NCBI GenBank assembly: GCA_029265615.1
Contig: JAJUIB010000018.1
Location: 1 to 54,871 of the forward strand
DNA from: Spirochaetota bacterium
GTDB lineage: Bacteria > Spirochaetota > Spirochaetia > Treponematales > Rectinemataceae
Length of the DNA stretch: 54,871 bases
Reading direction: 5' to 3'
Shown: positions 49,426 to 54,871 of the stretch, piece by piece
Layout: the number at the start of each line of letters is the position of its first letter
Position numbering within the stretch: position 1 is the first letter of the stretch
Notes under the pieces: model-generated
Told to the model about the DNA's origin: nothing
The model's database searches: none
What the model saw: only the letters and a program-made list of their open reading frames with translations
Translations under genes and position numbers: made by a program

Positions 49426-50067
49426 TTATGCCTCCGTGTCGGCGGTATCGCCAGGCCGTCGCTCGTTTGCTTCTTCTTCCGCGGACTCGGGCGCGGCCTC
49501 GCCGCGCTTTCTGGCCTTATTGACGACGAGGGCTCGACCACGGAAATCCTTTCCGCTCAGCGCCGCAATGATCCCTTCGGCTTTGTCGGGGGCGATGTCG
49601 ACAAACGAGTAGTTGTCGAAGGAGCGGATATCGCCGATATCCTCGGGCGCGAGGCCTCCCTCCTCGGTGAGAAGGCGGAGCAAGGTGCGGGGGTGGAGAC
49701 GTTGCCGTTTGCCGAGGCCGAAAAACACCGTGGTGCCATCGCCCTGGTAGCGCGGGCGAGGCGCTGCGGTTCGCTGATCGGGAGCCTCCCGCATGGGAGC
49801 ATCACTTCCGTGCGCGGCACGGCCGGACGTGGCGCGTTGCGCGCAATTTGCGCGCGGCCCTCGCGCGGCGCCGCGACTCGTGGCTTCGAGGATGAGGAGG
49901 GCCGCCGCGTAGGAGCGAAGGTGCAAGGGGATTTTCCGCCTGAAGGCCGCGCGAACGACATTGAGAACGAGGGAATCGGCCGGTGCGGCGAGTTCGGTGA
50001 GCAGGCGATCGAGGAGGGCGTCGACGTCCCGGTCGAGGGCGTCCGGCCCCGGACGGTGCTTGGGCAC
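49426..50067 (-). CDS. DbpA RNA-binding-domain protein without helicase core
   Basis: A 213-aa protein. The C-terminal third is the DbpA-type RNA-binding domain, with KRQRLHPRTLLRLLTEEGGL and IGDIRSFDNYSFVDIAPDKA, which normally follows a DEAD-box helicase and binds 23S rRNA hairpin 92. Here no helicase domain exists; the N-terminal 70 residues are helical (DALLDRLLTELAAPADSLVL) and a low-complexity linker follows. Such free-standing domains occur in spirochaetes, perhaps as ribosome-assembly factors. GTG start is set by AAGGAG. The acidic/charged tail (EEEANERRPGD) may be disordered. Confidence 0.85.
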   Translation of the reverse strand: MPKHRPGPDALDRDVDALLDRLLTELAAPADSLVLNVVRAAFRRKIPLHLRSYAAALLILEATSRGAARGPRANCAQRATSGRAAHGSDAPMREAPDQRTAAPRPRYQGDGTTVFFGLGKRQRLHPRTLLRLLTEEGGLAPEDIGDIRSFDNYSFVDIAPDKAEGIIAALSGKDFRGRALVVNKARKRGEAAPESAEEEANERRPGDTADTEA

Positions 50068-50205
50068 GGTGGTACTCCTTAGGATGGCTAACGCTGTTGT
50101 GCCGATTGTGGCCTAAAACGGCGCTCGCCGCAAGCGCCACGCGTGCCGCCGACGCCGCCGGGCTTCTTGCCCGGCGCCCGGCGATCGGGTAGAGTTGAGC
50201 TATCC

Positions 50206-50742
50206 ATGCGTATTCTTCAATTCTGTGCGTTTATTGCCGTTTCCTTCGCGGTCGGGGCGGCGGGCCTTGCGGCCGAAGCTGCGACGGCCATCGCTTCGCC
50301 CTCTGGCCCCGTGGCTCCCCCGCTGGCGCAAGCGCTTTCCTCGCCCCCCCCCCTGCTCCCCGATGACCCCGCCCCCCTCCTTGGACTCGGCCTGTCCGAG
50401 GCCTTCTCGCGGCTGGGCCCCCCCGCCTCTGTTTCCGCATTCCGCGGCGCCGAGGCCTGGCAGGATGATGTGGTCTTTGTGTTCCCCCCGGGTTACTCGC
50501 TGTTTTGGTTCGGCGATCGATTATGGCAGATACGCTTTGGCCCGACCTATGCGGGGTCGCTCTACGGCCTTTTTCTCGGCGACAGCATTGACAAGGTCTA
50601 TTCGCTCCTTGGCGCTCCGTTTTACGAGGTTGAGGGCAGCCTTGTCTATCGCTTACCCTATCGCGGCTACCCGGTCCGCTTAAGGCTCACCATCGAGGGC
50701 GGGCGCATTGTCGACGCCTATCTTTACCGGGCGGATTTTTAG
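50206..50742 (+). CDS. Exported protein of unknown function
   Basis: A 178-aa protein with a signal peptide (LQFCAFIAVSFAVGAAGLAA), a Pro/Ala-rich linker, and a compact mature domain with LYGLFLGDSIDKVYSLLGAP and SLVYRLPYRGYPVRLRL, which is beta-rich and hints at a small periplasmic binding fold. Not recognised. The aroDE start is 9 bp downstream, so the two genes are probably one transcript. Earlier in-frame starts do not give a better signal peptide. Confidence 0.65.
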   Translation: MRILQFCAFIAVSFAVGAAGLAAEAATAIASPSGPVAPPLAQALSSPPPLLPDDPAPLLGLGLSEAFSRLGPPASVSAFRGAEAWQDDVVFVFPPGYSLFWFGDRLWQIRFGPTYAGSLYGLFLGDSIDKVYSLLGAPFYEVEGSLVYRLPYRGYPVRLRLTIEGGRIVDAYLYRADF

Positions 50743-50750
50743 GAGTAGCC

Positions 50751-52247
50751 GTGTCGCTCGTCTGCCTGTCGCTCACCGGTCGGAGCATCGCCGAAGACCT
50801 TGCCGTTCTCGACCTCTACCGCGGTCAGGTTGATCTTGTCGAACTCCGCGCCGACTACCTCGACCCGAGCGAGAAATTCCTCATCCGCTCCTTTCCCGAG
50901 CGCGCCGGCATCCCTGCGATTCTCACCGTGCGCAGGCGCGTGGATGGCGGTGTCTTTGAGGAAGGGGAGGGCGTCCGACTCGTGATGATCGCCAAGGGCC
51001 TTGCGTATGCGCGCGCCAACCGTCTTGCCAACTTCGCCTACGTCGATCTTGAGGCGGACTTCCGCATCCCGGCGGTCGAAGAAGCCTGTCACGCCTTCGG
51101 CACGCGCATCATACGCTCGGTTCATTCGCCCCGCGGCATGCCTGAAAGCCTCGAGGCGCTGTGGGATCGCGTCGCCGAGGTCCCCGACGAGATACCGAAG
51201 GTGGCGGTCGCCTGCGAGGGCGCCGCTGATCTTGCACGGCTTCTCTCCTGGGCGGACACCCTGCCCGCCCGCGAGCACATTGTCGCAGGCATGGGCGATT
51301 ACGGCATCGCGACCCGCATCCTTGCCTCGCGTTCGGGCTCGATGATCGCCTACGCGAGCGCGCTCGATGCGGGACTGCCGCACGCCGCGCCCGGCCATCT
51401 CGATCCCGGCGCGCTCGAGCGGGTGTACCGCATCCGCGAGCTGGGGCCGGCCACCGCCGTCTATGTGCTTGCGGGCGGAAGGAGTGTGACGGGGTCGCGC
51501 TCGCCGCTTCTCCACAATGCGGCATTTCGCGCGGCAAAATTCGATGCGGTGTATGTACCCCTCCCCGCCGAGTCGCCCGAGGCCTTCTTTGCCGCCGCCG
51601 CTGCCGCGGGGGCCGTCGGCGCTTCTGTTACCGTTCCGCTTAAAGAGGCCGTCCTCCCCTTCCTAGTACGGCTGTCGCCCGAGGCCCGCGACATCGGGGC
51701 TTGCAACACCTTACGGCGCGCCGATGAGGGTTGGGAAGGCTATAACACCGACGCCGCGGGTTTCGAGCGCGCCGTCTTCGAGTTCCTGGGAAAAACCGAC
51801 CTGTCGGGCCTCCGCGTCACGCTTGTCGGCGCAGGCGGTGCAGCGCGTGCCGTAGCCTATGTGCTTGCACGAACCGGCGCCTCGTGCATCGTGCTCAACC
51901 GGAGTGTCGCCCGGGCCAAGGCGCTGGCGCGGCGTTACGGCTTCGCATGGGCTGCCTGCGACGAGCGCTCCGCCGAACTGGTGTCGGATCATGCCGACCT
52001 CATTGTCAATGCGACCAGCGTCGGTATGGAGGGGGGGGCGGCGGGGGATCCGCTTGAGTGGTACGATTTTACCGGCCGCGAGGCGGTGTTCGACCTCGTC
52101 TATCGGCCGGAGCGCACGCCGCTCCTTTTACGGGCACGCGCATCCGGCGCCCGCGTGGCGAATGGGTATTCGATGCTCCGCTATCAGGCCGCCGAACAAT
52201 TCCGCATCTGGACGGGCCGTGAGCCGCCGGCCGCCTACTATGAGTGA
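50751..52247 (+). CDS. aroDE: Fused 3-dehydroquinate dehydratase (type I) / shikimate dehydrogenase
   Basis: A 498-aa bifunctional enzyme for steps 3 and 4 of the shikimate pathway. The first about 225 residues are type I AroD; catalytic His125 is in RSVHSPRGM and the Schiff-base Lys150 in EIPKVAVAC. The second part, from about 235, is AroE: GSRSPLLHNAAFRAA (shikimate Ser pair), SVTVPLKEAV with the catalytic Lys, YNTDAAGFERAV with the Asn/Asp, then the NADP loop VGAGGAARAVAYVLA and a C-terminal YSMLRYQAAEQFRIW. The fusion is also known in other spirochaetes, chlamydiae and plants. GTG start after AGGAG. Confidence 0.95.
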   Translation: MSLVCLSLTGRSIAEDLAVLDLYRGQVDLVELRADYLDPSEKFLIRSFPERAGIPAILTVRRRVDGGVFEEGEGVRLVMIAKGLAYARANRLANFAYVDLEADFRIPAVEEACHAFGTRIIRSVHSPRGMPESLEALWDRVAEVPDEIPKVAVACEGAADLARLLSWADTLPAREHIVAGMGDYGIATRILASRSGSMIAYASALDAGLPHAAPGHLDPGALERVYRIRELGPATAVYVLAGGRSVTGSRSPLLHNAAFRAAKFDAVYVPLPAESPEAFFAAAAAAGAVGASVTVPLKEAVLPFLVRLSPEARDIGACNTLRRADEGWEGYNTDAAGFERAVFEFLGKTDLSGLRVTLVGAGGAARAVAYVLARTGASCIVLNRSVARAKALARRYGFAWAACDERSAELVSDHADLIVNATSVGMEGGAAGDPLEWYDFTGREAVFDLVYRPERTPLLLRARASGARVANGYSMLRYQAAEQFRIWTGREPPAAYYE

Positions 52248-52257
52248 GGTAGAGATC

Positions 52258-53133
52258 ATGGCGAAATCCGCCTTTGTTGCAATCGCCGGCCGCCCATCCG
52301 CCGGCAAATCGACCCTTGTCAACGCGCTGTGCGGCGGCAAGGTTTCCATCGTGTCTCCCGTGCCGCAGACGACCCGCAACGCGGTGCGCGGCATCGTCAA
52401 TCGCCCCGAGGGGCAACTCGTGCTCCTCGACACCCCGGGCTTCCATCTCTCCGAAAAGCGGCTCAACCGCATGCTCAAGGATATAGCGGTCGACGCCTTC
52501 GCCGATGCGGATATTGTGCTCTACCTGATCGATGCAAGCCGCGAACCCGGCCCCGAGGAAGAGGCGCTCGCCGCGGCGCTCGCCTCGGTCTCGGCGCGCC
52601 TTATTGCCGCCGCGAATAAGGTCGACGCGAAGGATGCCGATGCGGGGCGCGCGCGCGCCTTTGTCGCTTCCCATTTTCCCGAAGCGCCGTTTTTCGAGAT
52701 TTCCGCGCTTAAGCGCGAGGGCCTTGAAAGCCTTCTTGCCGCGCTGTTCGTACGCGCGGAGGAAGGGCCCGCATGGTATCCTGCGGAGTACTATACCGAC
52801 CAGGAACCGGTGTTCCGCATCGCGGAGATCATCCGCGAGAAAGTCATGCTCCACACGCGCGAGGAGCTACCGCACGCGGTGTACGTCCGGTACGAGGAGA
52901 GCCGTCGCGAGGCGGATGGCGGCCTTGAGGCGAGCTACGATCTTGTCGTCGAACGGGATTCGCAGAAGGGCATCCTCATCGGCAAGGCCGGCTCGATGAT
53001 CAAGCGCATCCGTGAAGAGGCTGAGGCCGACCTTGCGGACATCTTCGACTATCCCGTGCGTCTCAGGCTCAAGGTTGCCGTCGATCCCGACTGGCGGCGC
53101 GATGAAAAACGGCTCAAAGACCTTCTCTTTTGA
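52258..53133 (+). CDS. era: GTPase Era
   Basis: A 291-aa ribosome-assembly GTPase that binds 16S rRNA. G1 is GRPSAGKST (11-19), G2/switch PQTTRNAVRG, G3 DTPGFH, G4 NKVD, and the C-terminal KH domain contains IGKAGSMIKRIREEA. Start chosen at ATG 52258 after GAGGTAGAG; an ATG six codons earlier (52240) overlaps the end of aroDE. Last of a probable operon with aroDE. The stop is followed by an unusual 300-bp non-coding region that leads to the integrase. Confidence 0.96.
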   Translation: MAKSAFVAIAGRPSAGKSTLVNALCGGKVSIVSPVPQTTRNAVRGIVNRPEGQLVLLDTPGFHLSEKRLNRMLKDIAVDAFADADIVLYLIDASREPGPEEEALAAALASVSARLIAAANKVDAKDADAGRARAFVASHFPEAPFFEISALKREGLESLLAALFVRAEEGPAWYPAEYYTDQEPVFRIAEIIREKVMLHTREELPHAVYVRYEESRREADGGLEASYDLVVERDSQKGILIGKAGSMIKRIREEAEADLADIFDYPVRLRLKVAVDPDWRRDEKRLKDLLF

Positions 53134-53175
53134 AGTGCGGAAGGCTCTCCTGCGCCGAGTTGCGGGAAAAATCCC

Positions 53176-53209
53176 TTGCGAAAAAGCCGGGGCGCTTGTA
53201 CGATGTACA
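53176..53209 (+). promoter_or_regulatory. Putative integrase promoter with palindromic operator
   Basis: TTGCGA (53176-53181), 17-bp spacer, TACGAT (53199-53204). The palindrome TGTAC-GAT-GTACA (53197-53209) covers the -10. It looks like a repressor operator; integrase genes are often LexA-controlled, but this is not a known LexA box. The predicted leader is over 200 nt. Confidence 0.5.
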
Positions 53210-53300
53210 CAGCCTGGGGGAGGCGCAATTCGGAGCGCGTTTCGGCCGCCTGAGTTGTGGTGCTAGTGGGGCCTGACGCGTCGGTGTGATCGACACCGGT

Positions 53301-53339
53301 GCGCATCGTGCGTACGCACCTTGTGTACGCATGATGCGC
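53301..53339. repeat. 18-bp stem hairpin upstream of the integrase
   Basis: Arms 53301-53318 and 53322-53339 pair across a 3-nt loop with only two G-T wobbles. The left arm also contains a perfect 12-bp palindrome, GTGCGTACGCAC (53308-53319). No ORF of interest lies in 53134-53431; this hairpin and the promoter are its main contents. Confidence 0.75.
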
Positions 53340-53431
53340 GATCCTGCAATCGCTGCCGAGCGGAAACGACGTATACACGAAAAGGCCGCTATGTTGTGGC
53401 TGGCCGGAACCATCCTGCATCTGGCCGGCTC

Positions 53432-54760
53432 ATGGACGGGCTGGCGTTGGAGCTCGTGGTGCGCGTGAGTATTGTCGGTGCGACGTCCGGATACCTGGCT
53501 GTTTCCTTTCCCTATGACGCCCGGGTTGTAGGGGCGATGCGCGCGGTTCCCGGAGCATATTGGAAGCCCGAGCTTGGCGCCTGGCTTGTGCCTGACAGCT
53601 ACGCCGCAACAGAGCGACTTCTTGCCGCACTCTATGCCCTTGGTTTGTTCAATGTGCCATCCGGCGAGCTACCCCCCGCGCCGTGTCCGCCGTTGTCGCC
53701 GGGCGCCGCCCCTCCTCCCGGCTACCCCGTGGCGAAGCCGTCCCCTTCGGCGCATCCTTCCGGCTACGTAGGAAAAAGCGATGCGAGCGCTGAGTCGCTT
53801 CTTACAGACTATGTGGCCGCCCTTGCCGCCCGGCACTACAGCGCACGCACTGTCAGGGCCTATGAGGCGTGGGTTCGGCGGTTCCTTGCTGCCAACTCTG
53901 CCCGTAGCCCGAATTCGCTGGGGACGAAAGAGATAAATGCGTTTCTTTCCGAGCTTGCGGTACGCGACGACGTAAGCGCCTCGACGCAGAACCAGGCGCT
54001 TGCGGCGATTTTATTTTTGTTTCGGGCTGTGCTCCGCTTCCCCGTCGGCGCCCTTGAGGATGTGGTTCGTGCCAAAAAGCCTGTAAAACTGCCCGTCGTC
54101 TTCAGCCGGGAAGAGGTGCGGCTTGTGCTGTCGCGCCTTAAGGGCGACACGCGCCTTGCTGCGGATCTCTTGTATGGCACGGGCATGCGCCTGTCAGAGT
54201 GTCTATCGCTCCGCGTGCAGGACATCGACTTTGATCGAAACGGGATCACCATACGTGGCGGCAAAGGCGCGAAAGATCGGGTCACCATGCTTCCTACGCG
54301 TCTTGTGGCGCCGCTTAAGCAACACCTTGAAAATGTAAAAGAACTCCATGCGCGCGATCTTGCCGATGGATGGGGGCGCGTCGCACTCCCCGAGGCGCTC
54401 GCGCACAAATTCCCCAATGCCGCCGCAGAGTGGGCCTGGCAGTGGGTGTTTCCCCAAGAGCGCCGCTGGAAGAACTCCGCCACCGGCGAGGAGGGGCGAT
54501 ACCACATGGGTGAGTCTACGCTCCAACGTGCCGTCCATATCGCCATATTGGAGGCGGGGATAACCAAGCATGCAAGTTGCCACACCTTTCGGCATTCCTT
54601 TGCGACGCATCTTTGGGAGAGCGGCCAAGACATACGGACCATCCAGGAGCTTCTTGGGCACGCTGATGTAAAAACAACGATGATCTATACCCATGTCCTG
54701 AACAGGAGCCCTGCGGGGGTGCGTAGTCCCCCCCTCTCGGTCAAGATAGATGTCACCTGA
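53432..54760 (+). CDS. Integron-type tyrosine recombinase (IntI-like) with N-terminal HARP-like domain
   Basis: A 442-aa recombinase. Residues about 10-72 form an extra N-terminal unit with the pattern FPYD...VPGAYWKPELGAWLVPD, like the HARP repeat of SMARCAL1; a Pro-rich linker follows. The SAM-like core-binding domain is about 122-205. The catalytic residues are Arg253, Lys278 or Lys281, His384, Arg387, His410 and Tyr419. Between box I and II it has the insertion diagnostic of integron integrases (EALAHKFPNAAAEWAWQWVF and ESTLQRAVHIAIL). The C-terminus GVRSPP is like other IntI. ATG 53432 is used; GTG 53459 after GGAG gives a slightly shorter protein. The orientation away from era, with an insertion sequence right behind, is described in the findings. 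Confidence 0.9.
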   Translation: MDGLALELVVRVSIVGATSGYLAVSFPYDARVVGAMRAVPGAYWKPELGAWLVPDSYAATERLLAALYALGLFNVPSGELPPAPCPPLSPGAAPPPGYPVAKPSPSAHPSGYVGKSDASAESLLTDYVAALAARHYSARTVRAYEAWVRRFLAANSARSPNSLGTKEINAFLSELAVRDDVSASTQNQALAAILFLFRAVLRFPVGALEDVVRAKKPVKLPVVFSREEVRLVLSRLKGDTRLAADLLYGTGMRLSECLSLRVQDIDFDRNGITIRGGKGAKDRVTMLPTRLVAPLKQHLENVKELHARDLADGWGRVALPEALAHKFPNAAAEWAWQWVFPQERRWKNSATGEEGRYHMGESTLQRAVHIAILEAGITKHASCHTFRHSFATHLWESGQDIRTIQELLGHADVKTTMIYTHVLNRSPAGVRSPPLSVKIDVT

Positions 54761-54778
54761 TCTTGAGTGGGGGTGACA
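54741..54778. repeat. Overlapping inverted repeats at the integrase stop
   Basis: TCAAGAT/ATCTTGA (54741-54747 with 54760-54766) and TGTCACC/GGTGACA (54751-54757 with 54772-54778) interlock over the stop codon. They could be a terminator, an attachment site, or the left end of the following insertion sequence. Confidence 0.6.
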
Positions 54779-54781
54779 GCA

Positions 54782-54871
54782 ATGAGGTACAGTTCGAGGA
54801 TCCGCCAGGCCGTGCTACGCAAGGTCCTGCCGCCGCAAAATCTCGCGGTGCGGGACGTGGCACTGGAGTTC
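54782..54871 (+). CDS. Transposase (IS3-type orfA-like), N-terminal fragment
   Basis: Only 30 codons before the window ends. The start MRYSSRIRQAVLRKVLPP is typical of the small helix-turn-helix protein of IS3-related elements (MRYs-x-x-F/I-x-x-AVLxKxLPP), continuing VRDVALEF. The ATG begins 22 bp after the integrase stop. A GACAGC before it gives only a weak ribosome-binding site. The rest of the insertion sequence is outside the window, so completeness is unknown. Confidence 0.6.
   Translation, partial: MRYSSRIRQAVLRKVLPPQNLAVRDVALEF

Follow-up and report, generated by a model that had tools for sequence, protein, structure and literature searches.

The window (the whole 54,871-nt stretch of DNA that was analysed, contig JAJUIB010000018.1 of a spirochaete of the family Rectinemataceae, here genome G000) closes with a gene for an integron integrase, intI, which is separated from the upstream era gene by an intergenic stretch (53134-53458) that carries a predicted promoter and several hairpins (Table 1). 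The intI product scores 442.6 bits against TIGR02249 (cut-off 265). The GTG codon at 53459 is its likely start, being preceded by a Shine-Dalgarno-like GGAG (53449-53452) and aligning with the N-termini of related integrases, with which the protein shares an N-terminal extension. This extension of about 115 residues (53459-53815) shows an LSVxFPYD...PGxxW...WxIP pattern that is conserved in spirochaete IntIs, and it has no Pfam match over the gathering score. A repeated element sits in the last codons of intI and may part the gene from its attI site and cassette array. Arrays of attC sites are seen in the relatives G073, G034 and G038; the array of G000 is not seen because the contig ends inside this element, before any array is reached.

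Table 1. Features of the intI leader and its surroundings in the window
Feature	Position	Strand	Basis
era, gene upstream of the leader	52258..53133	+	NF000908/TIGR00436
-35 element TTGCGA of the intI/array promoter	53176..53181	+	sequence; spacing to the conserved hairpin as in related integron leaders
TGTAC-GAT-GTACA palindrome, probably incidental	53197..53209		unique in the genome, chance-level, unconserved
-10 element TACGAT	53199..53204	+	17-nt spacer from the -35 element; comparison with related leaders
conserved leader hairpin, LoaP-type UNCG	53224..53260	+	covariance model match, 36.4 bits; covariation over 18 loci
small leader hairpin, 7 pairs	53281..53299	+	predicted fold, -9.6 kcal/mol
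long leader hairpin, 18 pairs as RNA, 3-nt loop, no T-tract	53301..53339	+	fold prediction, shuffles
intI, integron integrase with N-terminal extension	53459..54760	+	TIGR02249; GTG start proposed
repeated element, left end (probably an insertion sequence)	54732..54871	+	140 nt identical to contig C34 of G000, flanks differ

An earlier note on this DNA, made from its letters, had proposed that a promoter and a leader of over 200 nt form a structured control region ahead of the integrase gene, and the comparison with related genomes supports this description, with a predicted leader of about 250 nt up to the likely GTG start. The TTGCGA/TACGAT pair is present at the same position relative to the conserved hairpin as in related leaders. 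A generic promoter scan of the region listed nothing, this pair included; the window promoter is supported because promoter-like pairs precede the hairpin in related integron leaders as well. In those examined, sigma-70-like pairs lie 10-43 nt ahead of the hairpin, and the mean promoter score over 24 leaders is 11.3 versus 9.3 in shuffles (with one row, L137, set on a wrong anchor in this and the palindrome comparison, the L137 promoter being read by eye instead).

The same note had read a TGTAC-N3-GTACA palindrome as a possible operator for a LexA-type repressor. The palindrome does exist and does overlap the -10 element, but it is a chance-level feature that related leaders do not keep. In the 325-bp intergenic stretch, eight pairs of 5-nt arms with a spacer of 0-10 nt are found versus 4.3 expected, a count that 10% of shuffles reach, and 0.41 pairs are expected for a spacer of exactly 3 nt. 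A search of the 2.7-Mb genome for the palindrome returned the window site as the sole exact copy. The regions ahead of recA in 23 genomes from the family contain no copy with fewer than three mismatches, and shuffles of these regions average 3.1-3.7 mismatches, like the real ones. Absence of the motif from other SOS promoters is what the note itself had named as evidence against its LexA reading. In 23 other integron leaders the best fit has 3-5 mismatches, as in shuffles, except for a 1-mismatch copy in L006 (genome G034), which lies within a different inverted repeat and away from the -10 element. We also observe, ahead of the intI promoter of L006, a long inverted repeat, GATGAACAATGTACATCCGTGTACATTGTTCATC, that is probably the end of the preceding gene. 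LexA is encoded in G000; its gene follows closely behind the preceding one with no visible promoter gap (upstream region read by eye), and no convincing candidate for the clade's LexA box emerged from the G000 genome, from the recA upstream regions of the 23 genomes or, by eye, from G000 lexA. LexA-controlled integron integrases are known from other phyla (PMC3108266) and resemble the present case in that regulation acts at the intI promoter; unlike them, the window locus has no recognisable LexA box. Repression of intI by LexA or another repressor bound to the palindrome would fit the overlap with the -10 element, the presence of LexA and this precedent, but it is very improbable because the palindrome is at chance level, unique in the genome, unconserved at intI and absent at recA. 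SOS control of intI through a different site is possible.

The long near-perfect hairpin described in the earlier note, with its inner palindrome, read in the sequence as GTGCGTACGCAC at 53308-53319, and its second TGTACG (53324-53329), is present and goes beyond chance. It forms a 15-bp stem with at most one mismatch, which none of 300 dinucleotide shuffles matches (the best reaches 13), and the RNA of this segment is predicted to fold at -32.8 kcal/mol (z -6.0). A scan found no terminator-like sites within 53100-53500, and a repeat check in G000 found no second genomic copy of the leader.

The feature that is shared with other integrons lies about 20 nt past the -10 element. Comparison of the intI upstream regions of related genomes yielded an invariant string, YGTTWCGGC, with complementary flanks, and these form a common fold that consists of a stem, a bulged A, three variable pairs, a bulged pyrimidine, GU, UUCG and GC. 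In the window the bulges are A 53234 and C 53238, and GU-UUCG-GC occupies 53239-53246; the tetraloop variants of the relatives (UUCG, UACG, UGCG) all fit UNCG. The alignment (A2) comprises all 18 motif-bearing integron leaders of the order then known, which were picked by the string and not by pairing (a previous version, A1, lacked L015, and the string match L018:453 was dropped as having no stem). Standard pairs fill 88.5% of the pair cells versus 58.7% in shuffles, covariation is 0.82 versus 0.24, with none of 500 shuffles reaching the observed value, and both sides change in 11 of the 13 pairs. Sliding the structure along the alignment lowers standard pairs to 41-49%, and RNAalifold recovers the same structure from the 18 leaders. 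A search of 50000-54871 against Rfam gave no matches up to E 1. The conserved hairpin is an RNA element under pairing selection that has no Rfam family. An intrinsic terminator behind it was considered and rejected: there is none in G000, and downstream terminators occur in five of the 18 leaders versus 2.9 expected, which is not significant.

Among 49 integron integrase loci, with classes assigned by hand, 31 have the hairpin near intI and 18 do not; the weak assignments are G128 (15.1 bits), G015 (18.1) and G088 (19.0). In 20 cases the hairpin is upstream of intI on the same strand (in G020 about 850 nt upstream), and in the others it lies beyond the 3' end of intI, nine times on the opposite strand and twice on the same strand. 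These positions are related to the layout of the integron. In G073 and G034, where the hairpin is upstream, many attC copies follow 3' of intI; in G038, where it is downstream and antisense, the attC array is 5' of intI. Directly beyond the 3' end of intI, the G038 locus (L137, 11682-11770) has both the hairpin and a promoter-like pair, and the predicted transcript runs antisense through intI into same-strand cassettes split by three 108-nt attC-like repeats. As read from the sequence, such a transcript could also repress intI. Assembly breaks are expected in repetitive arrays. In all 14 short contigs of the upstream type, and in none of the eight of the antisense type, the 3' end of intI is the one closer to the contig break. 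Hence, given the attC positions and the contig breaks in two opposite layouts, the hairpin tracks the predicted array-directed transcript and not intI itself: it stands before intI when intI and the array are co-directional, and on the opposite strand, beyond the 3' end of intI, when the array is on the other side.

A candidate for the protein partner of this element is LoaP, a NusG paralogue that binds a UNCG-type leader hairpin required for antitermination and that has been found in Spirochaetota (PMC12691694). G000 encodes a LoaP on contig C47 (NF033641, 149.8 bits, cut-off 125), which scores well under the cut-offs for UpxY (54.1 versus 100) and RfaH (30 versus 144.5). At the residues mutated in Bacillus LoaP (PMC12691694 for E40; also R41 and I143), the G000 protein has V at position 40 and keeps R41 and I143. 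The gene that follows loaP looks, by eye, like a nucleotide-sugar dehydratase. The leader of loaP itself (L061, around 1420-1450 of the locus on contig C47) contains CTCGTTTCGGCGCGAG, a related loop without the bulges; this leader has no covariance-model match at E 1, and autoregulation of loaP through the loop is a possibility that its sequence raises.

The covariance model of the hairpin has matches in 76 of 146 related genomes at E 0.01, and LoaP at 100 bits or more, a threshold chosen after the score gap had been seen, is present in 106 of the 146. Both occur in 69 genomes, the hairpin only in seven, LoaP only in 37 and neither in 33 (Fisher p 2e-7, a value that overstates independence as the genomes are kin to one another, with many of them fragmentary; G105, at 105.3 bits with one internal stop, was counted as LoaP-positive). 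The same association is seen at the integrons: LoaP is present at 28 of the 31 loci with the hairpin versus seven of the 18 without (p 2e-4, again among related genomes). The exceptions are G025, G028 and G128, with the hairpin and no LoaP detected, and G129, G059, G085, G032, G037, G105 and G024, with LoaP and no hairpin near intI. In two genomes without LoaP, G064 and G053, IntI shares 94% and 92% identity with the G073 protein and the ribosome-binding site is still present, but the whole leader, including promoter and hairpin, has been replaced. G129, which is LoaP-positive and also has a replaced leader, is a counter-example. Contig C1 of G129 carries three equal-scoring copies of the hairpin (1194485, 1871939, 2673659), which suggests a mobile or duplicated locus.

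Outside the integrons, eight hairpins are located 3.5-6.4 kb from loaP and one 17.8 kb away, all in one family and hence not independent. Others head genes for MurJ or polysaccharide flippases, nucleotidyl transferases and winged-helix regulators (L096, L104, L105, L107, L108), which are probable polysaccharide operons, and some stand ahead of unrelated genes, among them those for a ParA-like ATPase and 3-dehydroquinate synthase. The hairpins of family f5 stand before the 3-dehydroquinate synthase gene (L114) or before genes that were not identified (L112, about 6 kb from loaP).

Of nine Firmicute LoaP loci, one has a rather weak match in the loaP leader (Paenibacillus pinihumi, 22.2 bits, E 0.0014, ahead of an acyltransferase gene), one (L119) has, roughly 0.6 kb ahead of loaP, a structured match on the other strand, and seven have none near loaP. 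When seven whole Firmicute genomes were scanned, the matches included one intergenic hairpin in each of two Thermoanaerobacter at E 0.06, that of T. wiegelii lying about 90 kb from loaP; a second match (L208), in the same genus as G150, appears to be due to chance. The E-values of the model are optimistic, as two matches at E 0.01 were obtained in 40 Bacillus genomes, both in apparently coding DNA, where most matches of the model in these genomes fall.

The distribution of the hairpin bears on the idea that it serves IntI itself as an operator or is an attI or attC-like site for recombination. Folded attC hairpins are recognised by IntI proteins, and the element adjoins intI; yet the GTTRRRY/RYYYAAC core by which attC sites were scanned for is missing from it, the attC arrays are located elsewhere, and the same element heads polysaccharide and other operons with no intI nearby as well as the loaP gene of Paenibacillus, so that a role of this kind is very unlikely. 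A more serious, if still unlikely, alternative is that the hairpin controls the same transcripts through another RNA-binding partner, or by acting on RNA stability or translation. Covariation reveals an RNA element and not its ligand, and the seven genomes with the hairpin and no detected LoaP would be accommodated. Against this stand the association with LoaP over the 146 genomes and the closeness of hairpins to loaP, the loss of the hairpin along with LoaP at near-identical intI genes, and the match in a Firmicute loaP leader together with the published LoaP-bound UNCG hairpin. Translation control in particular fits poorly with a hairpin that is separated from the start codon by about 100-300 nt and, where the layout is antisense, from the first cassette by more than 1 kb.

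The reading that we consider likely is that integron transcripts undergo processive antitermination that depends on LoaP. The region would supply an integron transcript with its promoter and 5' leader, and the nascent RNA would fold into the UNCG hairpin with its bulged A and bulged pyrimidine soon after leaving the promoter. We infer that LoaP, supplied from contig C47, would bind this hairpin and join RNA polymerase, and that the modified polymerase would pass pause or termination signals and continue across intI into the cassette array. The first of these signals would perhaps be the 18-bp hairpin at 53301-53339, which might serve as a pause site or road-block beyond the LoaP-type hairpin. 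According to a review, attC sites do not terminate transcription (PMC8876359), so that the candidate obstacles are long-range polarity or this leader hairpin. The hint of control by attenuation in the earlier note is in line with this proposal and finds support here.

The closest known system is LoaP at the leaders of the dfn and mln clusters of Bacillus velezensis (PMC12691694), which shares with G000 a LoaP-family NusG paralogue, a UNCG-tetraloop hairpin in the 5' leader and a long multi-gene transcript. The target differs, being a spirochaete integron with intI and a cassette array here and a polyketide cluster there; the window leader has no classic intrinsic terminator, and LoaP binding is predicted in our case. 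The window hairpin is likened to that of dfn by the description of the latter as a UNCG-type leader hairpin (PMC12691694), not letter by letter. The layout in which intI is transcribed toward an array 3' of it, as in the window type, is that of the chromosomal integrons of Treponema (PMC3607928); the portion of that report that we used describes no leader RNA or antitermination, whereas the hairpin found here also marks the opposite layout within the same order.

More broadly, recruitment of a NusG paralogue early in a long operon, often one for polysaccharide, is a feature that the RfaH-ops and UpxY systems have in common with the present proposal. RfaH, in contrast, reads non-template DNA at ops (PMC12691694), and the window element is a covarying RNA hairpin. 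No report of LoaP with integrons was found in the open-licence PMC literature, where titles and the opening parts of abstracts also gave nothing relevant on antitermination or termination in integrons or on spirochaete NusG paralogues, and the main text of an integron review (PMC8876359) contains neither 'antiterminat' nor 'NusG'. As far as we found, LoaP-type control is previously unreported for integrons.

The wider proposal, to which we give an even chance, is that LoaP switches entire cassette arrays in Treponematales-like spirochaetes through a hairpin at the start of the cassette transcript, placed before intI or antisense past it, with tens of kilobases of captured genes expressed together, alongside LoaP-controlled polysaccharide operons. 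Integrons are known to stockpile genes, with strong expression from the Pc promoter limited to the first few of them. If the cassette transcript began with a processive antitermination signal, the reading of long chromosomal arrays would be explained and, if the wider proposal is true, the position-dependent fall in cassette expression of classical integrons would be conditional and not fixed. Cassette expression would then be tied to a regulator that is otherwise linked to polysaccharide and antibiotic operons. The covariance model marks probable LoaP targets in spirochaetes, and, in both integron layouts, the hairpin indicates which promoter reads into the array.
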